A stretch of 27,085 nt of DNA from a virus: IMG/VR virus record IMGVR_UViG_3300009151_000309, positions 1 through 27,085 of that record; one strand, 5' to 3'. A program made the position numbers and the translations under genes. Numbering within the stretch: position 1 is the stretch's first letter; the number at the start of each line of letters is the position of its first letter. Below are positions 8,050 through 27,085 of this stretch, one piece after another. Below the pieces are notes generated by a model. That model saw only the letters and a program-made list of their open reading frames with translations. It did not search any database and was not told the origin of the DNA.

Positions 8050-9735
8050 TTATTTTCCATTTTTTATCTCAATATAATTTTGTATGCGTTTGCCGATCCA
8101 GTGCATTACAGGAACGGCCATGCTGTTGCCAAGGGCTTTATATCGCGGGCCATCGGCGGCGTTTGGGATTGCAGTGTAGTCGTCAGGAAAACCTTGCAAT
8201 CGCTCACACTCGCGCGGGGTCAGGCGGCGCACTGCCATTTGTTGTGCAATTACATGACTTGGCCTGCTTGGCCTGTCTTCTCCTTCAGCGCGTAAAGTAC
8301 CTGCTTTGTCATCTTCCATCCAATAACCCTGTCCACTCTCGCGTATGACAATTGGTTGCATTACGGCTGTGCCTCCTTGTGCCGCAGTTGGGTTTAACCC
8401 AGATGCGGCATCCAATGTCTTGCTGGTGATTGCATCCATATCAACATAAAACCCGCCCTCTGGCCGATCGGGCCGCTTATTGCCGCCAAAGATATTGATT
8501 GGTTGCGCTACCGCCATACTTCCCCCACCATTTGCATCATATGCGCCAAGAGAGCGAAGCGTAGGCGACATGTCCGTTGTAGCGTCACTGCCGTAGTCTT
8601 TTGAGTTAAATGCAATTGGTTGTACTACATGCATGTTGCTATTTGAACTTAAAGTTCCAGTCGGCAGCTCACTTTCAGCCCTTGATCTGTTTGTCGCACT
8701 TGTAATTTGCGCCAAATCAAATGCTATTGGTTGCATGACAGCTGTTGTTGTGCTGTTTTGAATACCGCCTGGTGCTCTGGATAATAAAGCATTAGAAACT
8801 TCAGTGTAACTTGCAGTATTTACTGTGCCATCAGACCCATGCAATATAATACCAATTGGTTGCGCTACTAAATCTGTTGCATCTTTCCAATCGCGAGCCT
8901 TCATTGCGCTGGCAGTTCCATCTTCAACATATTCGCCAAATGCAACCATACGGGCAGCTAAAACAGCACCAGCAATCTGATTTCTTATCGGACCATCTTT
9001 GGCACGCGCGTCTAATGTTGGATTTAATTCGGTGAAATTACCTCCAGAAGGGCCAATTTCAATGCCTCTGGCAGATCCTTTCCCCGCACTGCGGCTCGGC
9101 GCAATATCCCTGCGCACGCCTTCGCGCTCAAAAAGTATTTCTGCTGGATCGAATCCGTCTCTAGCACTTGCGACAACGAACACACGACGGCGTCGTTGGG
9201 CCACTCCGAAATATTGGGCATCAAGGATACGCCACGCTGCTGATCTTTTGGGACCAACAACCAAACCAGCGTTTGTCCACTTTCCCCCTGTCGGGATGAG
9301 GGGGGCATCATTTCCCGTAAGGGCGGCAAGGAAGCATCCGAAGGCGTTGTCTTTGACGGACAAGACGCCGGGGACGTTTTCCCAGACGATGATGGCAGGG
9401 GGTCGTGCTGCATCATGTCGAACATTGTCAATTGCATCGGCCAATCTCACAAATTCTAATGTTAAATTTCCACGATCGTCTGACAGCGATTGGCGCAATC
9501 CCGCCACGCTAAACGCTTGACAGGGCGTTCCACCCACTAACAAATCGGCATCAACAATCCAATCCTGATCACGCAAAACGGTAAAATCACCGTGGCATGG
9601 CGTGTCGGGGTAATGATATGCCAATACTTGACGAGGGAATTTTTCTATTTCGCTAAATGCCAGTGGCTGCCAGCCAATGGGGTGCCACGCCACTGTTGCC
9701 GCCTCTATTCCTGAGCATACTGATAAATATTTCAT
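8050..9735 (-). CDS. DNA (cytosine-5) methyltransferase with a repeated target-recognition region
   Basis: 561 residues. All key C5-MTase motifs are present: I, LSVCSGIEAATVAW (4-17); IV, GGTPCQAFS with catalytic Cys72; VI, WENVPG (118-123); VIII, QRRRRVFVV (180-188); IX, RRLTPRECERLQGFP (503-517); X, GNSMAVPVM (536-544). The region between VIII and IX, where target recognition sits, is about 310 residues long and carries five QPI repeats (292, 335, 372, 411, 460) in units of 37-49 residues. It should methylate cytosine in phage DNA, perhaps to evade host restriction; no cognate endonuclease is visible. An AAGGA ribosome site lies four bases upstream, at the very edge of the pentamer array. 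The specificity is unknown. Confidence 0.95.
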   Translation of the reverse strand: MKYLSVCSGIEAATVAWHPIGWQPLAFSEIEKFPRQVLAYHYPDTPCHGDFTVLRDQDWIVDADLLVGGTPCQAFSVAGLRQSLSDDRGNLTLEFVRLADAIDNVRHDAARPPAIIVWENVPGVLSVKDNAFGCFLAALTGNDAPLIPTGGKWTNAGLVVGPKRSAAWRILDAQYFGVAQRRRRVFVVASARDGFDPAEILFEREGVRRDIAPSRSAGKGSARGIEIGPSGGNFTELNPTLDARAKDGPIRNQIAGAVLAARMVAFGEYVEDGTASAMKARDWKDATDLVAQPIGIILHGSDGTVNTASYTEVSNALLSRAPGGIQNSTTTAVMQPIAFDLAQITSATNRSRAESELPTGTLSSNSNMHVVQPIAFNSKDYGSDATTDMSPTLRSLGAYDANGGGSMAVAQPINIFGGNKRPDRPEGGFYVDMDAITSKTLDAASGLNPTAAQGGTAVMQPIVIRESGQGYWMEDDKAGTLRAEGEDRPSRPSHVIAQQMAVRRLTPRECERLQGFPDDYTAIPNAADGPRYKALGNSMAVPVMHWIGKRIQNYIEIKNGK

Positions 9736-9738
9736 TTT

Positions 9739-10666
9739 TCCTTGCCTGCCTCGTCTCGCCCATCATTGCCAATCCACGCCTAATCTCGCCTGCCTTGCCT
9801 AATCGGACCGGACCGAACCTGGCCATGCCTCGCCTGCCTTGCCAAATTGGCCACACCTCGCCGCTCCAAATCATGCCAAACCACGCCCGGCCTGCGATGC
9901 CATACCTTGCCGCACTTAGCCTTGACGAACCATGTCTCGCCCCGCCTGCCTTGCATAACCCCGCCGATCCAAGTCTAGCCACGCCTCGCCTGCCTTGCCT
10001 AACCTCGCCGGACGTGTCCGCATCTGGCCATGCCACGCCTGCCTTGCTATGCCTAGCCGAATCACGCCGGACCGATCCCCGCCTATCCTTGCCTGCCCTG
10101 CCGAACCAGACCGGACGATGCCTAACCTCGCCAATCCTCTCCACGCCTGCCTTGCCTTGCTGTGCCACGCCAGACCCGGCCGCTCCATGCCTCGCCTGCC
10201 TTGCCAAACCTAGTTCGGCCTGACCGTGACACGCCGTGCCGGGCCTGCCTTGCTATGCCTTGCCAGACCATACCGATCCATACCTCGCCTGCCTTGCCCT
10301 GCCATACCGAACAGATCCCTGCCTATCCGAGCCTGCCGAGCCAATCCGTGACTTATCTGACCTTTCCTCGCCCTGCCTGCCACGCTCTTCCTCGACTAGC
10401 CTGATCCCGCCGGACCTTGCCTGCCATGCCAATCCTTACCCAACGGTGCGTAGCCTTGCGATGTCACGCCTGCCACACCTTGCCATTCACCGCCCTGCCA
10501 TTCGATGCCCGTCCCTGCCTGCCATGCCATGCCAGACCGGACCGAAGCTAGCCTAAACCCGCCTCGCCTGCCGTGCCTGACCTGAACGCGCCATACCCCG
10601 CCTCTCCTAGCCTGCCTTGCCGGACCCGTCCAAGCCTCAACAGGCCTTTCCCCGCCTGCCTTGTCA
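9739..10666. repeat. Two-level pentamer array, non-coding
   Basis: A 0.93 kb stretch with no gene. On the plus strand almost every fifth base pair begins a pentamer of the form NNCCN (TGCCT, CGCCG, GACCG, ATCCA). A core near CGCCTGCCTTGCC recurs 20 times, starting at 9743, 9787, 9831, 9889, 9943, 9987, 10036, 10090, 10144, 10193, 10242, 10286, 10330, 10374, 10418, 10467, 10516, 10565, 10609 and 10653. Spacings are 44 (nine times), 49 (six), 54 (three) and 58 (once). Each unit is one four-base step (CGCC) plus 8, 9 or 10 pentamers. It runs from the stop codon of the upstream gene to the ribosome site of the methylase gene, and on the minus strand it has GG every five bases. Unit lengths of 44 and 49 shift the reading frame, so it is not protein-coding. 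Confidence 0.95.
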
Positions 10667-11125
10667 GTCAGAATTGAGCTGACGTTCAAGGCGCGCTTTG
10701 ACGCGATTGACTTCCGACAGAAGGTCGTCAACTTCAGGAGCCGCCAAATTATGGAGCATCGTCGAGATTTGATTGAGGCGCATCAAAACGATTTCCAGCC
10801 GGCTTGGCGTATTTCTGGCGATGATTTGCGTGTGGTAATATCCCTCGCCACTTTTACGCGGCGCTTGCGTAAACATGGGCGCGAGAACGACTTTGTTGTC
10901 CTGACGCACAATCTCAACCGTGACGGTCTTGATCAGCTGCCGCGCCTGCTGCAGGCGGTAGTTGTGCGCGGCCTCTTGATCGTCCCAATTGAATTGATCG
11001 TGCATGGCGGAGTTTGGATTGCTTGCGGAGCGCACCACCTCTTCGGGGGTAAGAACCCCCGATTTGGCAATGGCTTCAAGCTCTTCGCGGATAGCCGCGA
11101 GTCGTTTGCTTGAAATTCTTGGCAT
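10664..11125 (-). CDS. Conserved phage protein, function unknown (153 aa)
   Basis: The ATG at 11125 is preferred over a GTG one codon earlier because AGGGA lies five bases upstream. It overlaps the stop of the previous gene. The central part SASNPNSAMHDQFNWDDQEA then AHNYRLQQARQLIKTVTVEI is distinctive: I recall similar 'NP.S.LH..F.W.D..A...YR..QAR.LI' segments in phage replication/recombination neighbourhoods, function unknown. The protein then has a predicted coiled coil near its end (LSEVNRVKARLERQL). The stop codon abuts the first base of the pentamer array. Nothing catalytic is seen. Confidence 0.85.
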   Translation of the reverse strand: MPRISSKRLAAIREELEAIAKSGVLTPEEVVRSASNPNSAMHDQFNWDDQEAAHNYRLQQARQLIKTVTVEIVRQDNKVVLAPMFTQAPRKSGEGYYHTQIIARNTPSRLEIVLMRLNQISTMLHNLAAPEVDDLLSEVNRVKARLERQLNSD

Positions 11126-11754
11126 CACATTCCCTCTATTTTGAAAGTACCCCAGCCAAGTCCGGCGGAGGACTTGGAGTCGGGCCGTCCCTCACCGATG
11201 CCGACCTGCATACCCGCACGCATGATGAGGTTTGCAACGTCCTTGTCGGTGAATTGGTCGCCGTCGTAAGACACGCGGAGATTGATGTGCCACTCGCGCC
11301 ACAGTGGTCGAACGCGAATGTCAATCACGCCGGTGGCGTTACGGACGTGCATGTCGTTGCGTTCCCAGTCGCCATGTAGATGCACGAGCGGGACGCCATC
11401 GACACGGTCAAACGTGTCTGCTTCAACGAACACAGACAGTTTGGCAAGTGTCATTTTAAATCCGACGAGGCGGCAGGCGGAGATCATGGCCGCGCGAAAT
11501 GCACCAGCCGGAACGCCAACATGCCCATCCACGCCAATGTGCATGGCGTTGACGCAGTCCTCGTCGAAGTCGCGGGCCTCGCGGACTTTTTTACCGCGCG
11601 CCGTTGTTCCTTCCGCCATTTTGCCCATCATCATATTTTTGGCTTTTTCGCTAAAGCGGGCCTGCACGAAGGGCGCAGTGCCGATTAGCTTAAAAGCTAT
11701 TGTATTAATTTTGGGGGCGGTGATTTGGATTGCTTTAGAAGTTTTATCTAACAT
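11125..11754 (-). CDS. RAMP/Cas7-like phage protein (inferred fold), function unknown (209 aa)
   Basis: No phage family name comes to mind, but the architecture resembles a ferredoxin-like RAMP/Cas7 protein: an N-terminal strand (NTIAFKLIGTAPFVQARFSE), VPAGAFRAAMISACRLVGFK about residues 82-100 like the 'ipgsslrGalr' segment of RAMPs, a middle with VDGVPLVHLHGDWER and VRPLWREWHINLRVSYDGD, and a terminal Gly-rich MQVGIGEGRPDSKSSAGLGW like the G-loop. Cas7 proteins bind RNA; phage relatives could bind nucleic acid in recombination or replication. No Cas partner genes are present, so this is not a CRISPR system. SD AGGA is upstream of the ATG. The fold assignment is an inference from pattern and needs structure comparison. 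Confidence 0.8.
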   Translation of the reverse strand: MLDKTSKAIQITAPKINTIAFKLIGTAPFVQARFSEKAKNMMMGKMAEGTTARGKKVREARDFDEDCVNAMHIGVDGHVGVPAGAFRAAMISACRLVGFKMTLAKLSVFVEADTFDRVDGVPLVHLHGDWERNDMHVRNATGVIDIRVRPLWREWHINLRVSYDGDQFTDKDVANLIMRAGMQVGIGEGRPDSKSSAGLGWGTFKIEGM

Positions 11755-17409: not shown

Positions 17410-17813
17410 TAGACATCCTTAATGAAATGAAAGAAATGCGTGATGAAACGCAATATTCCGTGCATAAAGACATATACACGCGGGCAGTTGAAGATATGGA
17501 GCAATTGAGAAATGAAGTTGACCAACTGCGCGCAATCAGCAGAAAGCTATATGTTGAAAAAGCGCACTTGCTTGCAGACAAAATATCAAATGAAATTATG
17601 CGAGAAAACTACGACAAGTTGGTTTTAGAAAATGCAAAATTAAGATCCGACAATTCAAAAATGCACCAGAAGTTGGCAAAGGGGAAGCCGAAGCCTCCCC
17701 CAAAAGATCAAGCCAAGTCTTCTTCAAAAAAGTCTTCGTCTTCGTCTTCTTCCTCTTCTTCTTCGTCCTCGTCTTCGTCATCAGACATAGTTGACGAATC
17801 AATGACTTCATAA
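17406..17813 (+). CDS. Coiled-coil protein with a poly-serine tail (135 aa)
   Basis: GTG start within the stop of the previous gene; AGGGGGAAAGA acts as the ribosome site. Residues 1-90 are a long coiled coil (EMKEMRDETQYSVHKDIYTR, RNEVDQLRAISRKLYVEKAH, KLVLENAKLRSDNSKMHQK). Residues about 93-110 are basic/proline-rich, then about 17 serines in a row end in SDIVDESMTS. The serine run is encoded by TCT/TCG/TCC repeats (about 17717-17786). The last 106 bases overlap an opposite-strand gene. The first two-thirds looks like a real phage protein; the tail seems driven by the repeat. Confidence 0.65.
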   Translation: MIDILNEMKEMRDETQYSVHKDIYTRAVEDMEQLRNEVDQLRAISRKLYVEKAHLLADKISNEIMRENYDKLVLENAKLRSDNSKMHQKLAKGKPKPPPKDQAKSSSKKSSSSSSSSSSSSSSSSSDIVDESMTS

Positions 17814-20684: not shown

Positions 20685-23096
20685 TTAGATTGCCTGATTA
20701 GCCACATGAAGCGCTTTGACGATGGCCTCGTCAGGAGCATTGAGTAACGGCTCGGTGTTCTTAGATACTTCCTTTTTCGCCTTCTCGGCAAGATCCATCA
20801 GCCGCTTGACTAGCATCTGTTTTTTGCTGTTGGTCACTTTACCGCCGCGGGCGTAGCCCTCAGTCGGGTAGTTTTCTGGGCGTGAAGAACCTTGCGGAGG
20901 AGGATTAGACCGCAAAGCATTGAACGCCGTTTGTTGAACAAAATTGCCGGATTTGTCTATCAAGTTGCGCGCCGCTATGTTTTCTTGAGCCAATTGGCCA
21001 AGACGTTGAATGTCTTTTTTGTCACTGGATCCAACCAAGCGCATGACTTCAGGAGCCACTTTTGACTCTGCGGCATTAAGTGCGCCCTTGCTCAATTGAC
21101 CACCAATAAATGCTATAGCTACTTTAGCACTTGATGCAGGATCCATTGCACCGTGCTGTAGTAATTCATAAACTGCCGTACCAGCGCCAGCTGTAAAACC
21201 TGGCCCCCAAGACGGCAAATTATCTAATAATGATCTTCTGTTTGTCGGGTCAGTAATAGGCGCCGTTTTGTTTAAGTACGCTTCAGATTTGGCGCGGCCA
21301 TAAATAGAATTAAAATTCTCATCACCCAAAAACAATTTGGCCCGCTGACTTAAATTAGGCTTCTCCATAAGTTTTGCTAATTTTTCCGGACCATTGGTTT
21401 CAGCAAATTCTTTTAAAAATGATGCCACACCCTCTTGTGCCATCATTTTTTGCGCGTCATTCATTTTATTAAAGCTATTGATGACGTCTTGAGATTTAAA
21501 TGCGTTAATATTTTTCATAGCATTGTAGCCGGCCTCAAGCGCGTTTGTAGCGCCCATGCCTTCGGCGGCCGCACCACGCGCTGTGGCATACTCCGGCACA
21601 ATACTATCAACCTCAGTTGTAAGTCTGTTTTTTAAACTAATGAGGCGACGCGCTTCATTGTTTTCACCCGCCCGCAATGCAGTTGAAATTTTATCGTCAA
21701 TGTTTTGTTTGACTGAATCCCAAAACTGCAAATTAGGAGCTTGCGGCGGAACTGCGGGTGTACCAGCCTGCCACTGAATACCTCTGTCAGTTTGAACATA
21801 ACTGCCAGGAGTGCCAGGCTTGCCCTCTTGAAACAGTTTAATACCAGACTGCGGATCTGTGGCGTCAGACGCCGTTTTTCTAATTGCAGATTTCACATCA
21901 TCAATCTGCAAAAGATTTTTCAATTTGTCGTTAAAGACGGATTGGGCATTTGGTGAATTACGCGCTAAATCGTAAACGGTATCATTTATGTTTTTATTAA
22001 TTTGATCGATTGATGCGGAACGAGCACCAGCATCAAGAGGCACGCCTAAAGTGTCTTCTATGTGTTGGCCGAGAGCCGTTTTAGAAGCGTCAGCGCGGCC
22101 TTTAATTGCTGTATTTATTGCAGCTGTAGCGTCGCGCGTTTCATCAGTGCCATAGCCCATTTTCTTTAAAAAGGCATCCGTCTTTGGGCCTTTGTAATCA
22201 AACACATTCGGAGTGGCGCCATTACTCACAGCTTCCTGCACTTTGGAAAGGAGCGCGGGATTGTCAATAAAATCTTCAGCCAAAACACGCGCAAGGTCAG
22301 CTTTGGCTTTAGCGTTTGGCATAAATGCAGTTTGAACCATGTCAGACATGTAACTGCCAAGAGAAGATAAAGCTTTGCCAGCGGCTTTAGATGTTCCAAG
22401 GCCCAAAACGGAACCAAAGAAACGAGCATATGGCTCCGCCTCGGTATTCTCCGTAAGAAAGCCAGCTGACTCTGACCCAACGCCGGCCATAAAGTTTTCA
22501 AGAGCCTGCTTTCCCGTTGAAGTTGCGGCTTCAGTTAAAAGAGGCAAAGCCTTGGCGCCGCCATAAACACCCTTTACAAAGGTGGGCAATTCGGCAAGTC
22601 CGCCAGTTAATGCAGCGCCAGACGCAAAGCGTGAGCCGCCGCCCATAATTTTACCTGGCACTGTCGTTGATTCATATTCTGCAGGCGGATACGCTTCTTT
22701 AATTTTTCTTTCAACGCCCTGCACTGTCGGAAGGTGCGTGCCAAAAAAAACACCATAATCACCTGACAATTCTTTTGCAGTAGGTGGTTCCGGCTCCTGA
22801 TTAAATTCAATTTTGTTTAAACCCAAGTTAAGCGGGTCTGAATATATGGGCGACTCATCTTCTGACAGCCTTTGACGTGCTGCCCTAGCCGCCAAACCAA
22901 TAGTGCCAGGCAAGCCAATTATATCAGCTGGAGCCAATGCAGCTTGCGCCCTCATAGAGCGGCCAACGTCCTCCGCAATGCCAACATTGGAGGCTTTAGC
23001 GCCGCTGCCAAATGCTGACGACAAATCATTGTTGCCAGTTTGATCAGTCGACGTCGTTTGGGATCCAAATAATTTTTGAAGATCGTCTTCTTCCAT
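20685..23096 (-). CDS. Large virion protein, possible internal/ejection protein (803 aa)
   Basis: The ATG overlaps the previous stop (TAATG). The protein is Ala- and Gly-rich with helical blocks. The opening MEEDDLQKLFGSQTTSTDQT is acidic/low complexity; then ALAPADIIGLPGTIGLAARA may be membrane-active; residues about 740-803 contain GYARGGKVTNSKKQMLVKRL then MDLAEKAKKEVS, which is the 'RGGkv' motif shared with the large protein upstream. No enzyme motif is clear. Ala-rich large proteins downstream of the portal/peptidase gene in podovirus-like phages are often internal proteins injected with DNA; that role is inferred. Confidence 0.75.
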   Translation of the reverse strand: MEEDDLQKLFGSQTTSTDQTGNNDLSSAFGSGAKASNVGIAEDVGRSMRAQAALAPADIIGLPGTIGLAARAARQRLSEDESPIYSDPLNLGLNKIEFNQEPEPPTAKELSGDYGVFFGTHLPTVQGVERKIKEAYPPAEYESTTVPGKIMGGGSRFASGAALTGGLAELPTFVKGVYGGAKALPLLTEAATSTGKQALENFMAGVGSESAGFLTENTEAEPYARFFGSVLGLGTSKAAGKALSSLGSYMSDMVQTAFMPNAKAKADLARVLAEDFIDNPALLSKVQEAVSNGATPNVFDYKGPKTDAFLKKMGYGTDETRDATAAINTAIKGRADASKTALGQHIEDTLGVPLDAGARSASIDQINKNINDTVYDLARNSPNAQSVFNDKLKNLLQIDDVKSAIRKTASDATDPQSGIKLFQEGKPGTPGSYVQTDRGIQWQAGTPAVPPQAPNLQFWDSVKQNIDDKISTALRAGENNEARRLISLKNRLTTEVDSIVPEYATARGAAAEGMGATNALEAGYNAMKNINAFKSQDVINSFNKMNDAQKMMAQEGVASFLKEFAETNGPEKLAKLMEKPNLSQRAKLFLGDENFNSIYGRAKSEAYLNKTAPITDPTNRRSLLDNLPSWGPGFTAGAGTAVYELLQHGAMDPASSAKVAIAFIGGQLSKGALNAAESKVAPEVMRLVGSSDKKDIQRLGQLAQENIAARNLIDKSGNFVQQTAFNALRSNPPPQGSSRPENYPTEGYARGGKVTNSKKQMLVKRLMDLAEKAKKEVSKNTEPLLNAPDEAIVKALHVANQAI

Positions 23097-26000
23097 TATT
23101 GCACCCCAAATTTAAACATATCGGCTGGGTTAACTTTTTGAATGTCTTTCCCATCGTAACGGAAAATATCTCCAGAAGTTAACCCGCGTTTGCTAAGTGC
23201 GCCCATTTGTTCCTTGCTAAGATTTTTGGGGACAACGTAAGTGGCGCCGGCAGTCCACTCTTCATGTTTTGGCAAATCCATACCGCCGAAGGTGCCGATT
23301 TGCTTTCTAGCGGCTTCTTCGTAAGTGCTAATTGGATTGGCCTTTGCCCATTCGTTATAAAACGCTGACGGGCTTTTCCAACCTTGTTGTTGCGCAACCT
23401 GCCAGTCATTCATAAATTGCTTGGTCCACATTGAGCCACCCTTTAATGAGGCAAGCATGGCGTGGTTGGCCTTAGCCGACAAATCAACGTCTGGCGTTCC
23501 TACGTCACTCAATTTGTTAAATTCAGATTGAGCAAACCGTGGTTGTGCGGCCTTCAATTGCTGCAAAACAAGGTTAACTTTGTCCTTTTGGATCAATTGA
23601 GCTGCGCCTAAATCGCCGCCTAATATCCGTTTGGCGAGGTCGTGATCTCCGTATGAGTCAGCAATAGCAGCGTAGCCAGCCAACATATTAGTTGTTGCCC
23701 CACTCTTAATAAGTTTAAACGCATTAGTCATTTGATCAGCAAGTGCCATCGCCCGATCAACATCTGGCTGCTTCTCTAAAAAGTCCTTATAGAAAGCGGA
23801 ATCATTTTTTTGCTGCTCTTTATGCGACTCAGGCAATTCAGTCACAATAGAACCCTTAGGCACGTTAATAGGAGGCAAGCCGCCATTAGCAGGCGCCGCA
23901 GGTACAGCGCTTGTTACCGTGGCTGTTTTGGGATCCATAGTGGCCTTTTTAACTTCCTGCGCACCAGAGGGTTGAGCAGATGGCTGCTGTGTAATAGCCG
24001 GACCTTCAGGGTTAATAATTTTTACGCCTGTTTCAGTAAACTGTGGGGCGTATGACGTCTCCATCTTTTTCTTGGCTTCTTCTACAGCGACCGTTGCGTA
24101 TTTGTTACGCACATCGTTGTAAACATTTAACGCTTGAGCGGCTTGCGCCCTGATAGCCGCAGACTGCCCAGAGGCAATCAGCGCAGGGTCTTGTGCCTGC
24201 AAGGATAAGGATTCATAAGCCTTTTTAGCGTTCGCCACTTCCGGAATGGAGTCAATGTGCTTGTAAATATCTTGAACGTCCGAAATATTTTTTGGAAGTT
24301 CATTGCTTACAGGTTTATTCGCAGAAGGTTGCGCAGCGGCCTTTGCTTCAGGCTGCCCTGTTGTTTGACCAGTTGGCTGGTTAGTTTCACCGGCAGATTT
24401 ATTACCAGCGCCCGCCATACCCATAGACCCAGCATATTTAGAGAAGCCAGGGATCTGGTTTAAACGGTTGCGATATTCATCTGCGCTAATGGCTTCACCA
24501 CGGATATTATCATAAAATTGACCGTTGCCAATTGGTCTAAACCGTTCGGCTGCAAGGCCCAGAGTATTTTTCATAATCTGGCTTTCTTGCAATTGAGCCT
24601 GCTGCGCCAACTGCTGCTGCTTAAACTCACGGTCCTGCTGCGCACCGTAAGCACCGGCGCCGGCAAGCAAGCCCTCACCGAGGCGCTGCGAGAAGCGGTA
24701 TTGGTTAGACGCCAGCATACCACCGAGGCCCGCAATCAACGGCACCCAGAAGCTTGCTTCGCGCGGCACGACATCGGGAACGCCAACAGTGTCGGCGATC
24801 TTTTCAAATGGGCCTTTTTGCGGTGACAGGCCGTTAAATGACTTTGGCTTACCCGTTGCTTCATTGCTTGCCACTTCATTTTTCTGCGCGTCAGGATCAT
24901 TGACGCGAGGATCATACTCAAAGTGCATAGGGTCTGGGTTGTTTTTAAAATTACCACCCCAAACCAAATTGTGCTTCTTGGCTATTTCTTCAATATTGTC
25001 GGGAAGATTTGTCCGTGTTGAACCCTGCGGATTATCTTCAGCATTAATGTCTATGGCATTGCCATAAGCATGTTGCGACGGCGTATTTGTCCCGCGAATA
25101 TTTCTTGGATTAAAACCGCCACTTGAAGAAAGCGGATAGCCCATTGAATCCAATTCTTGCAAGAAGCTTTGGAAGTGTGGCGCCGCTTGTTTATTAACGG
25201 TCCACTTGCCTCTGTCAGGAATTTCAACAGTGGTCAAATTTTTAGCTTGCCATTCTGGTTCACTATAATGGCCGCCCATAGTTTGAGGATTGGCATAATT
25301 ATACGCCAATTGCACATTTTGATCGCCAGTTTGATCAGGCGTTGACAACGTATCGGTCGTGCCTTGTGCGTCGGACGCTGAAACAAAGCCCGGCAATGCG
25401 TAGCCAGTACGTCCGCCAGACTTGCGAGCCACGCGCTGCTTTAATTTTGAGTGAGCGCCGAGTGCCGCCTGCGTCAGCAGATACATGTAGGTCACGGTTT
25501 CCTTGGGCAGGAAATCGCTAATCTCTTTGCCTGTGTGAGCGGCCTGACGGATGGCGTTATCAACTGTCTGCACGCCTGCATTCATTGCGGCGGCAGCCAA
25601 CAGCGGGTTATCATATTTGTGAACAAGGTTATTAAACGACACTTTCATCGCGTGATATTTGGGGTCGTTTTGGTTGATGACGTTTGAATGCGAACCTAAG
25701 CCACCGCCGCCCGCTTTACCAATGCGGCCACCGCGATTTAGGAAAAACATTGGCAAAAATTCTAAAGCGGATTCTGCGCCGCCAGCAATAAGGCCTGCGT
25801 CAGCGAGGCCAGCGCCAATGCCGGCAGCAGTGTCACCAAGAGCAGCAAGCTCAGTTGCGCCAGCCGCTGCAGATCCAGCTTCTGCGGCGCCAGTACCCAT
25901 CAATTCACCAAGCGCGGGAGAAGCGGTTGCCTCAGCCGCACCGTGGGCAGCGGCAAGGCCAGTCGGGCTTGCGTTGGCAGCTAATGCGGCCTCGCCAGCG

Positions 26001-27085
26001 CTAGGCGCAACACTTGTCGCGGCGCTAGACGTGGACGCTGCAGCTCCAAGCCCCTCAGGGCGCGCTAATGGCACGGGAGTGCCGGCAGCAGCCGCAGGGT
26101 AAGCCGAGGCAAGTCCGCCCGCAGGCGTGGGCGCGCTTTGACCAAGCAACTCGGCTGCCTTGCCATAAGCTGCATTACCCATTTTGCCCAAACCATACAA
26201 ATTAGATGCCATTGAGGTCATCTTCATAAGAGGGTTTTGAGTTTCCTGAACAGTCGGCATTTGGCCGGCCTTCATGGCGTTAAATGCCTGCGTTGGGTTG
26301 ATTTTTTGGCTGAGATCCAACTGGCCCATGTAGCCTACACGGGATGGGTCTTTTGATGGGTCGTTAGGATCATTAGAGGCGCCATAAGGCAGCACACTGC
26401 CATCCAAGGCGTGGTGAGCGCGTCCGCCTCTATTATACCCCTCAGGGCGAATAGGAGGCATTACAGACGTGTATGTCCCATCATTTGCCGGTAAAGTGTC
26501 GCTTGACGTTAATTGATCAAGCCAACCCTTTTTTTCTCCTGGCTCTGCAATAAGTTTTTCTTTAAGTTTCTCAGCTCCAGCAGCCAAGCTAGACACGCTG
26601 TTACCAAACTGCGCGGCTTGGTTAATTGTACCCATAGTTGTTTGCTGCGGACCCAATTGAGCGCTTGCAGTCATCAAATTACGGGGCTGGGCAGGATTAA
26701 GAGCCACGCCATAAGGGCCAGGCATTGCAGCTGGATTGCCGGGCATACCCGCATATCCTGCTTTTTGTTGAGCGGCCAACGCCATGATAGACGGGTTGTT
26801 GCTCATCATGTCAATGTAGTTTTTCAATGCAGACGGATCTGCACCACCAACGCTATAACCAGTGCGGCCACCGCGAGCAAAAGCGCCGCCAGATGACGTT
26901 GGCCCCTTACCGCCCGCAGTTGGAGGTGTTGAAGTTGTTGGCGTGCTTGTAGATGGCCCTTTGCCGCCCGCAGTGGGAGGCGTTGTTGGCGCGGGTGTCG
27001 GGGCAGGAGTGGACGGCCCCTTACCGCCAGCCGTTGGCATTTGCTGCTGCGGCTGTTGGTATTGTTGTTGATAGCCGCCATATTG
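23096..27085 (-). CDS. Very large virion protein with an M15-type peptidase domain (5' end outside the window)
   Basis: Open to the window edge: 15 in-frame codons precede the ATG at 27040 and encode QYGGYQQQYQQPQQQ, so the start is outside and at least 1329 residues are seen. The N-terminus has three PTAGGKGP repeats. Four RGGR/GGR motifs (about 56, 206, 436, 543 from the ATG) flank Ala-rich low-complexity blocks. At about 610-715 there is a peptidase M15 domain: SQHAYGNAIDINAED (His, Asp zinc ligands) and PMHFEYDP (His), as in D-Ala-D-Ala carboxypeptidases and phage endolysins. It should cut peptidoglycan during DNA entry. The remainder is helical and coupled to the 803-residue gene by TAATG. 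Confidence 0.85.
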   Translation of the reverse strand, partial: QYGGYQQQYQQPQQQMPTAGGKGPSTPAPTPAPTTPPTAGGKGPSTSTPTTSTPPTAGGKGPTSSGGAFARGGRTGYSVGGADPSALKNYIDMMSNNPSIMALAAQQKAGYAGMPGNPAAMPGPYGVALNPAQPRNLMTASAQLGPQQTTMGTINQAAQFGNSVSSLAAGAEKLKEKLIAEPGEKKGWLDQLTSSDTLPANDGTYTSVMPPIRPEGYNRGGRAHHALDGSVLPYGASNDPNDPSKDPSRVGYMGQLDLSQKINPTQAFNAMKAGQMPTVQETQNPLMKMTSMASNLYGLGKMGNAAYGKAAELLGQSAPTPAGGLASAYPAAAAGTPVPLARPEGLGAAASTSSAATSVAPSAGEAALAANASPTGLAAAHGAAEATASPALGELMGTGAAEAGSAAAGATELAALGDTAAGIGAGLADAGLIAGGAESALEFLPMFFLNRGGRIGKAGGGGLGSHSNVINQNDPKYHAMKVSFNNLVHKYDNPLLAAAAMNAGVQTVDNAIRQAAHTGKEISDFLPKETVTYMYLLTQAALGAHSKLKQRVARKSGGRTGYALPGFVSASDAQGTTDTLSTPDQTGDQNVQLAYNYANPQTMGGHYSEPEWQAKNLTTVEIPDRGKWTVNKQAAPHFQSFLQELDSMGYPLSSSGGFNPRNIRGTNTPSQHAYGNAIDINAEDNPQGSTRTNLPDNIEEIAKKHNLVWGGNFKNNPDPMHFEYDPRVNDPDAQKNEVASNEATGKPKSFNGLSPQKGPFEKIADTVGVPDVVPREASFWVPLIAGLGGMLASNQYRFSQRLGEGLLAGAGAYGAQQDREFKQQQLAQQAQLQESQIMKNTLGLAAERFRPIGNGQFYDNIRGEAISADEYRNRLNQIPGFSKYAGSMGMAGAGNKSAGETNQPTGQTTGQPEAKAAAQPSANKPVSNELPKNISDVQDIYKHIDSIPEVANAKKAYESLSLQAQDPALIASGQSAAIRAQAAQALNVYNDVRNKYATVAVEEAKKKMETSYAPQFTETGVKIINPEGPAITQQPSAQPSGAQEVKKATMDPKTATVTSAVPAAPANGGLPPINVPKGSIVTELPESHKEQQKNDSAFYKDFLEKQPDVDRAMALADQMTNAFKLIKSGATTNMLAGYAAIADSYGDHDLAKRILGGDLGAAQLIQKDKVNLVLQQLKAAQPRFAQSEFNKLSDVGTPDVDLSAKANHAMLASLKGGSMWTKQFMNDWQVAQQQGWKSPSAFYNEWAKANPISTYEEAARKQIGTFGGMDLPKHEEWTAGATYVVPKNLSKEQMGALSKRGLTSGDIFRYDGKDIQKVNPADMFKFGVQ

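Follow-up and report, generated by a model that had tools for sequence, protein, structure and literature searches.

A dense GGY-NN repeat array beside a RAMP-fold gene of a phage, very probably the guide-RNA array of a VIPR system

Genes and repeat units at the locus

The window, i.e., the whole stretch of DNA that was analysed, is a 27,085-base virus record whose genes include a terminase, a primase-helicase, a methylase and a RuvC-like gene. On its minus strand, a gene for a 209-aa protein is followed by one for a 154-aa protein, which overlaps its end by four bases, by a tract of short repeats, and by the methylase gene, whose ATG at 9735 stands directly past the AAGGA that closes the tract (Table 1). 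The informative strand of the repeat is the minus strand as well, which is the coding strand of both flanking genes. The protein families phrog_4652 and phrog_15946, to which the first two genes belong, are both annotated as of unknown function in PHROGs. Some further repeats were noted in the window. The methylase (8050-9735) carries several QPI-motif repeats in the middle of the protein (MQPIAF, VQPIAF, AQPINI, MQPIVI), a short GTCTTC tandem repeat at 17732-17779 lies within a small ORF and yields a serine run, and a minus-strand ORF of 1,314 aa at 23096-27040 has PTAGGKGPS-type repeats at its N-terminus.

Table 1. Features of the repeat locus, with positions in the window
Feature	Position	Strand	Basis or remark
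Very probable vrRNA (guide RNA) array, GGY-NN, 19 units/20 GGCA steps	9736..10660	-	repeat analysis
vipr gene, 209 aa, predicted RAMP-fold protein, phrog_4652	11125..11754	-	profile and predicted fold
Candidate vap (vipr-accessory) gene, 154 aa, phrog_15946	10664..11128	-	PHROGs, linkage
First core GGCAGGC	10654..10660	-	starts three bases past accessory-gene stop (TGA)
Unit 1, 44 nt	10613..10656	-	
Unit 2, 44 nt	10569..10612	-	
Unit 3, 49 nt	10520..10568	-	
Unit 4, 49 nt	10471..10519	-	
Unit 5, 49 nt; only unit found common to contig L012	10422..10470	-	
Unit 6, 44 nt	10378..10421	-	
Unit 7, 44 nt	10334..10377	-	
Unit 8, 44 nt	10290..10333	-	
Unit 9, 44 nt	10246..10289	-	
Unit 10, 49 nt	10197..10245	-	
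Unit 11, 49 nt	10148..10196	-	
Unit 12, 54 nt	10094..10147	-	
Unit 13, 54 nt	10040..10093	-	
Unit 14, 49 nt	9991..10039	-	
Unit 15, 44 nt	9947..9990	-	
Unit 16, 54 nt, degenerate core CGCAGGC at end	9893..9946	-	split by eye
Unit 17, 58 nt, one additional short step inside	9835..9892	-	split by eye
Unit 18, 44 nt	9791..9834	-	
Unit 19, 44 nt	9747..9790	-	
AAGGA closing the array, probable ribosome-binding site of methylase gene	9739..9743	-	sequence

A preliminary description of the tract, made by eye, had read its plus strand as five-base steps of the form NNCCN. The pattern is real and withstands autocorrelation, but it is better written on the minus strand, as a repeated GGY-NN with a short step GGCA. 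Over the 928 bases from 9739 to 10666, lag-5 identity is 0.495 versus 0.296 in shuffled sequence (z 14.0, 300 dinucleotide shuffles), and the tract is ordered at lags 44, 49 and 54 as well (z 15.6, 16.2 and 12.2, same shuffles). When the whole window is scanned in 150-base steps, lag-5 identity exceeds 0.4 in five 300-base segments only, all covering 9751-10650. Base frequencies were counted in 17 of the 19 units, leaving out both units of a 112-base stretch. In these units, the two G positions are occupied at 0.90 and 0.88, the third base is C (0.58), T (0.27) or A (0.15) and never G, and two variable bases follow. Approximately 10% of the GG positions in the window are degenerate.

Nineteen exact GGCAGGC cores and one CGCAGGC, the latter read by eye, make up 20 cores and delimit 19 units. 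Re-analysis thus returned the same count and spacing as had been described before: nine units of 44 nt, six of 49 nt, three of 54 nt and one of 58 nt. The same holds for the bounds of the tract, from the stop codon of the upstream gene to the probable Shine-Dalgarno sequence of the methylase gene. The short step between units comprises four bases, GGCA, and occurs 20 times in the window; a unit ends in GGCA by definition of the core, and the pentamer preceding this terminal GGCA is mostly GGCAA or GGCAT. Only the period and a short core of ~12 bases are common to the units. A reading of the units revealed no structured non-repeat tail between them, and Rfam gave no match in the window at gathering scores.

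The neighbouring proteins and the VIPR assignment

VIPR (Viral Interference Programmable Repeat) was reported in April 2026 (PMC13142463; bioRxiv 2026.04.26.720920), and we found no other paper on VIPR systems or vrRNA since 2025. The system consists of a RAMP protein, Vipr, an accessory gene, vap, and vrRNAs of 9-16 YNNGG repeats (PMC13142463). GGY stays unpaired, while NN reads double-stranded DNA noncontiguously with one base skipped, NNxNNx..., and the Vipr complex silences genes of competing phages, as shown for phage SUSP1 and a Pseudomonas fulva prophage (PMC13142463).

A profile of 61 Vipr-family sequences matches PDB entry 36pp, "SUSP1 Vipr protein", with E 3.1e-12 over 86 columns, and the next matches among solved proteins have E 0.49 or worse. 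Since the relation spans these 86 profile columns only, the published code is carried over a large distance. The AlphaFold model of the 209-aa protein (pLDDT 90.6) is in agreement with the profile: all 50 Foldseek matches listed are chains or complexes of type III (Cas7-11 included) or type VII RAMP proteins, the best with E 2.2e-5, and the best VIA-align result is Csm3 (Z 11.4, 149 residues, rmsd 3.4). The Foldseek library extended up to 2026-04-08, and 36pp is not among the matches listed. Judged by profile and predicted fold, the product of 11125-11754 is a RAMP-fold relative of SUSP1 Vipr. No Pfam family matches more than two of the 61 members, and PADLOC gave just two single-member matches for them (E 0.03 and 0.05). 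The model of the 154-aa accessory protein reaches pLDDT 94.0 and has no significant Foldseek match in the PDB (best E 0.38). A tblastn search with gp39, the Vipr relative of Gordonia phage UmaThurman, also reaches Escherichia and Felixounavirus phages with E ~1e-5 among the matches listed; SUSP1 presumably belongs near these phages.

A RAMP-homologous Vipr, an accessory gene in a small locus (the candidate vap gene, phrog_15946), a tract of tandem repeats with GGY and hypervariable NN, which recurs in relatives, and carriage by a phage, evident from the phage genes of the window and from its origin as a virus record, are found together. With protein, accessory gene and GGY/NN tract all present, the window is considered a VIPR locus, and the tract is very probably the guide-RNA (vrRNA) array of a phage VIPR system. 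The earlier description knew of no named element with this design, a gap that the VIPR report (PMC13142463) now closes. The repeat, its units, the gene linkage, the RAMP fold, the relation to SUSP1 Vipr and the hypervariable NN are directly supported here.

The SUSP1 system (type II; PDB 36pp) resembles the window in its RAMP protein, its adjacent accessory gene, its location on a phage, and guide RNAs of the GGY/NN form that are encoded in the intergenic region alongside. In contrast, the four SUSP1 guides measure ~100 nt and end in an invariable structured 3' tail, whereas the window carries ~19 back-to-back units parted by the four-base step only. Its regular units comprise 8-10 full pentamers and one four-base step, compared with 9-16 repeats in published vrRNAs. 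Since the type II trait of an invariable structured 3' tail after the repeat tract is absent from the window, we do not assign the locus to type II. PMC13142463 also mentions staggered arrays in which vrRNAs overlap (fig. S18); these probably share the architecture of the window, whose units follow one another without spacer. The locus is an unusually compact and very dense example of a VIPR array. With the RAMP proteins of Class 1 CRISPR systems (Csm3/Cas7) the window shares the predicted fold (Z 11.4) and the idea of a protein filament on a guide; it differs in having one 209-aa protein, a pentamer register and no near-identical repeats. An unsystematic look recognised neither a CRISPR array nor cas1/cas2 in the window. 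A CRISPR array was rejected as an explanation of the tract, as its units lack near-identical direct repeats and unique spacers.

For transcription, loading, DNA reading and silencing we infer from the published work how the parts may act together. The array lies directly behind both genes in the same direction and is therefore probably transcribed with them. The transcript would be cut or trimmed into ~19 guides, and Vipr would line each guide, one subunit to every GGY-NN pentamer, such that GGY is held by the protein and the two free bases are presented. The NN pairs would then read double-stranded DNA as NNxNNx... and silence genes of competing phages, if the window follows the published systems (PMC13142463). 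By the same analogy, silencing rival phages is probably the purpose of the array. We further propose, on the basis of the present data, that the four-base step (GGCA GGC) breaks the five-base register and thereby marks the end of one guide and the start of the next: a protein that steps by five bases would lose its register there, so that the guide may be expected to end.

Occurrence of the array and its linkage to the two genes

An array-only DNA pattern matched at least 120 IMG/VR contigs. Among the matches listed, the array was confirmed in 106 of 120 loci by a loose test, namely a 150-base stretch with lag-5 identity of at least 0.45. An iterative HMM search found one or both genes in 89 of these 106 viral array loci listed (both in 74, phrog_4652 only in 11, phrog_15946 only in 4, neither in 17), and either gene in 0 of the 14 pattern loci without array among the matches listed. 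By protein search, IMG/VR contains 522 Vipr relatives, and an array is present in 72 of the best 80; these 80 are the closest relatives and overlap the loci collected before (three belong to the phage of the window itself, and six or more are contigs that had already been collected), thus the sample is not fully separate.

The orientation of neighbouring genes was determined from crude ORF calls, i.e., the longest ORF near the array, for 129 arrays in all. The upstream ORF lies on the G strand in 91 of the 116 arrays with a called upstream ORF, and the downstream ORF in 74 of 113. Within a set of 71 upstream ORFs, 32 match phrog_15946 and 20 match phrog_4652, the same families as in the window. 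Stop codons called from 90 bases before to 60 bases after the array start fall within 31 bases of it in 62 of 98 cases.

A scan of bacterial genomes returned at least 119 loci, many of them chance matches in GC-rich genomes. Of the loci listed, 49 of 119 pass the loose array test, and a further locus is a simple repeat; a stricter test retains an array in 24 listed loci, 10 of which have either gene. A Vipr relative occurs in 12 listed genome loci, 11 of them with an array. Within the 8 kb at most that were covered per locus, neither gene was found in 38 of the 49 loci of the loose test and 14 of the 24 of the strict one. As the genome loci mostly come without either gene, the link between array and genes is less clean than in the viral loci. 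Some of the gene-less arrays are chance or simple repeats in GC-rich genomes, and others are unexplained. Arrays in Streptomyces (L203:7028-7133) and Agromyces (L219:4858-5220) have NN that is mostly AG and no Vipr relative in the locus; they are perhaps simple repeats of other origin. In Bacterium HR16 (L173:752-2046), two arrays were observed in which NN varies and the GGCAGGC core occurs several times, and neither a Vipr nor a phrog_15946 gene was recognised in 7.3 kb, which fits a divergent system or lost genes.

Named phages also carry relatives. A Vipr relative together with punctuated GGY/NN arrays is present in Cyanophage Cy-LDV1 (66% identity to the Vipr of the window; a third-party assembly), Mycobacterium phage Saal (35%) and the Gordonia phages ODay (30%) and UmaThurman (31%). 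Compared with the window, these phages have fewer units per array and a variable order of genes and arrays. In Cy-LDV1 (L383:3120-4115), one punctuated array lies between the Vipr relative and the next gene and another past that gene; in Saal (L384:2085-2340), a punctuated array with units of ~59 nt lies upstream of the Vipr relative. The protein search listed 27 Mycobacterium phage records with a Vipr relative, duplicates included. The recorded hosts of phages with a Vipr relative and punctuated arrays include Mycobacterium smegmatis mc2 155 and Gordonia terrae 3612.

A special case is gp40 of UmaThurman (L252:3011-3334), a hypothetical protein that sits almost entirely on a GGY/NN array, flanked by the Vipr relative gp39 and the phrog_15946 relative gp41. 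It is almost certainly not a protein, and it bears out a suspicion in the preliminary description, that spurious RQGKARQG-type frames in other phages may be the same thing. A tblastn search with the 184-aa frame of the window's array hit UmaThurman only (E 7e-3). A blastn search of arrays against phage records gave no match, which says little because the low-complexity filter was on. The papers listed in literature searches contained nothing relevant on pentanucleotide or pentameric repeats in phages.

Punctuation, guide turnover and alternative readings

A chain detector, stricter than the loose test, found 182 array pieces in 109 loci from all sources and a single one in reversed sequences. 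In these 109 loci, steps from GCC to GCC are mostly of 5 bases (4,167), followed by 4 (525) and 10 (468), and the base of the four-base step is T on the C strand (GGCA opposite) in 495 of 525 cases. The seed patterns required GCCTGCC, i.e., one four-base step per locus, hence the count of four-base steps arises partly by construction; these steps outnumber the loci several-fold. Distances from one GGCAGGC core to the next were also measured in the 69 loci that have a Vipr relative. They are 4 modulo 5 in 402 of 471 intervals, 39 to 64 bases being the commonest lengths, so that each unit holds one step that is one base short. A further 37 intervals are 3 modulo 5, of which 26 measure at least 83 bases; as we read them, these long intervals match two units with a degenerate core between. 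The "4 + 5n" spacing in 402 of 471 intervals makes the short step look like punctuation between guides, and we accordingly interpret the four-base GGCA step as such. The main text of PMC13142463 does not describe a four-base punctuation; its fig. S18 may.

Three contigs of the same phage carry the array of the window with 99.8-100% identity. A close relative, L012, has a Vipr 85% identical to that of the window; its contig ends inside the array, of which 12 units were parsed. With a limit of same length and at least 65% identical NN, the two arrays have one unit in common, unit 5, in which NN is identical at 17 of 18 positions and GGY differs at 5 of 27. Throughout the collection, 2.5 million offset comparisons revealed only 58 shared guide pairs, which come from 20 contig pairs. 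The contigs of the window's phage (L009-L011, L303-L305) and the duplicates L321, L343, L353-L355 and L376 were excluded from these guide comparisons, and the run detector (80% GG) catches 13 of the 19 window guides, the unit in common with L012 not being among them. Between guides drawn at random from different contigs, 0.72-0.74 of NN, 0.08 of GG and 0.36 of Y positions differ. Just four shared guides are non-identical, too few for a strict comparison of drift in NN versus GGY. The earlier view of a noncoding repeat, not freshly duplicated, with quantised unit lengths, in which the period is conserved and not the sequence, is supported. A single tract may store ~19 guides, with a one-base-short GGCA, throwing the filament off register, as the sole separator, no need of tail or spacer, and repertoires that are replaced between close relatives; taken as a whole, we regard this proposal as possible, leaning slightly towards doubt.

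No credible target was found in IMG/VR for the five of 19 window guides that were searched (units 5 and 11-14). A 26-base wildcard pattern of unit 5 has four matches, all in AT-rich contigs (GC 0.25-0.37), which lie antisense in ORFs of 256-418 aa and in one codon phase, not the wobble-skip phase. The 16-base cores of units 11, 12, 13 and 14 have 5, 7, 1 and 19 matches, and 0 of these 32 extend to the next NN, with 2 expected by chance. When the hit contigs were compared with 16 window proteins, a relative was found in L299 only (L299:4316-4846): there the core of unit 14 matches ~1.6 kb away from a distant Vipr relative (25%, E 6e-7). Guides against other VIPR systems have been reported (PMC13142463); the L299 match is without extension and is therefore treated as probable chance. 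One guide each from Bradyrhizobium, Atopobiaceae and Saal gave no convincing target in 265, 140 and 248 genomes of the host taxa, respectively. The Bradyrhizobium pattern has 47 near matches (46 with two mismatches, one with one) versus 9 for the reversed control, an excess that we read as codon-phase bias; the Atopobiaceae pattern has 15 versus 5 and the Saal pattern 2 versus 0. As no target was found, the function is carried over from the published VIPR systems.

The reading rule was addressed on the collected loci, where L253-L302 were left out of the target tests because most had been fetched with guide patterns. With one base skipped, 14 of 768 guides have a match that is expected less than 0.1 times (~5.0 million bases, both strands counted), and 6, 5 and 7 guides do so at skips 0, 2 and 3. 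Shuffling gives 9.05 +/- 2.8 guides at skip 1 (20 shuffles, one of which also reached 14), so the excess points weakly in the expected direction and is not proof. Exact 7-NN words match at chance among the collected loci. Exact 8-NN words, counted with the loci fetched by guide patterns removed, match 8 times at skip 1 versus 6, 3 and 6 times at skips 0, 2 and 3, which is not distinct from the 4-9 of five shuffles. A test of the skip rule by constant phase was uninformative (z 0.5). NN resembles codon positions 1-2 in 330 of 523 guides, and NN permuted within loci fits the codon phase nearly as well (315 observed versus 302 +/- 8, 496 guides). Strand coherence within guides has z 3.1 for the codon-1-2 phase and 1.9 and 0.5 for the other phases. 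This codon-phase signal is suggestive only, and for the window by itself it lacks significance (the value is reached in 258 of 1000 permutations).

These results bear on the reading that the locus is a Vipr-related RAMP system which reads RNA, or reads its targets by a rule other than the skip of one nucleotide. The distance to SUSP1 Vipr, the guides searched without finding a target, and skip-rule tests that stay so close to shuffled sequence would all fit such a system, as would the presence among the closest folds of type III Csm3, whose complexes target RNA. Nevertheless, the GGY/NN grammar is the same as in the experimentally tested systems (PMC13142463), and the excess at skip 1, weak as it is, goes in the expected direction; we consider this reading unlikely.

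A low-complexity basic protein (ARQG/KARHG type), translated from the minus strand of the tract in whichever frame, is very improbable. GGCNN repeats leave both strands with open-looking frames, two minus-strand ORFs (184 and 111 aa) cross parts of the tract, and gp40 of UmaThurman shows that such an array can be annotated as a protein; however, none of the listed frames extends over the whole array, unit lengths of 44 and 49 nt shift the frame, the array begins directly after a stop codon, and NN, which sets most residues, is near random between phages.

The strict period and the intergenic position could likewise suit a DNA site, i.e., a binding ruler with CC every half helical turn, an origin, or a packaging or recombination site, as the preliminary description had considered. 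Against this, the array is tied to one two-gene RAMP cassette in many diverse phages, its strand follows the upstream gene (see above), near-random NN leaves no sequence-specific site beyond GGY, and a mean step below five bases should run off the 10.5 bp phasing; such a site is very improbable. A two-quartet G-quadruplex in DNA or RNA, suggested earlier by GG at each five bases of the minus strand, is scarcely credible, as none of the 17 units counted has a G at the third base, which is always C, T or A, and a quadruplex should need neither GGY nor four-base steps.

VIPR has been argued to be older than CRISPR, and little about it is in print. If a register slip indeed marks the guide ends, it would provide a testable rule for reading guides from sequence alone, and with such a rule it could be listed which phage attacks which. 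The Vipr phages of M. smegmatis mc2 155 and G. terrae 3612 make the rule testable at once. Guide arrays have probably been misread as proteins in some phage annotations of the RQGKARHG kind, and the form of the array described here may turn out to separate guides in a manner of its own.
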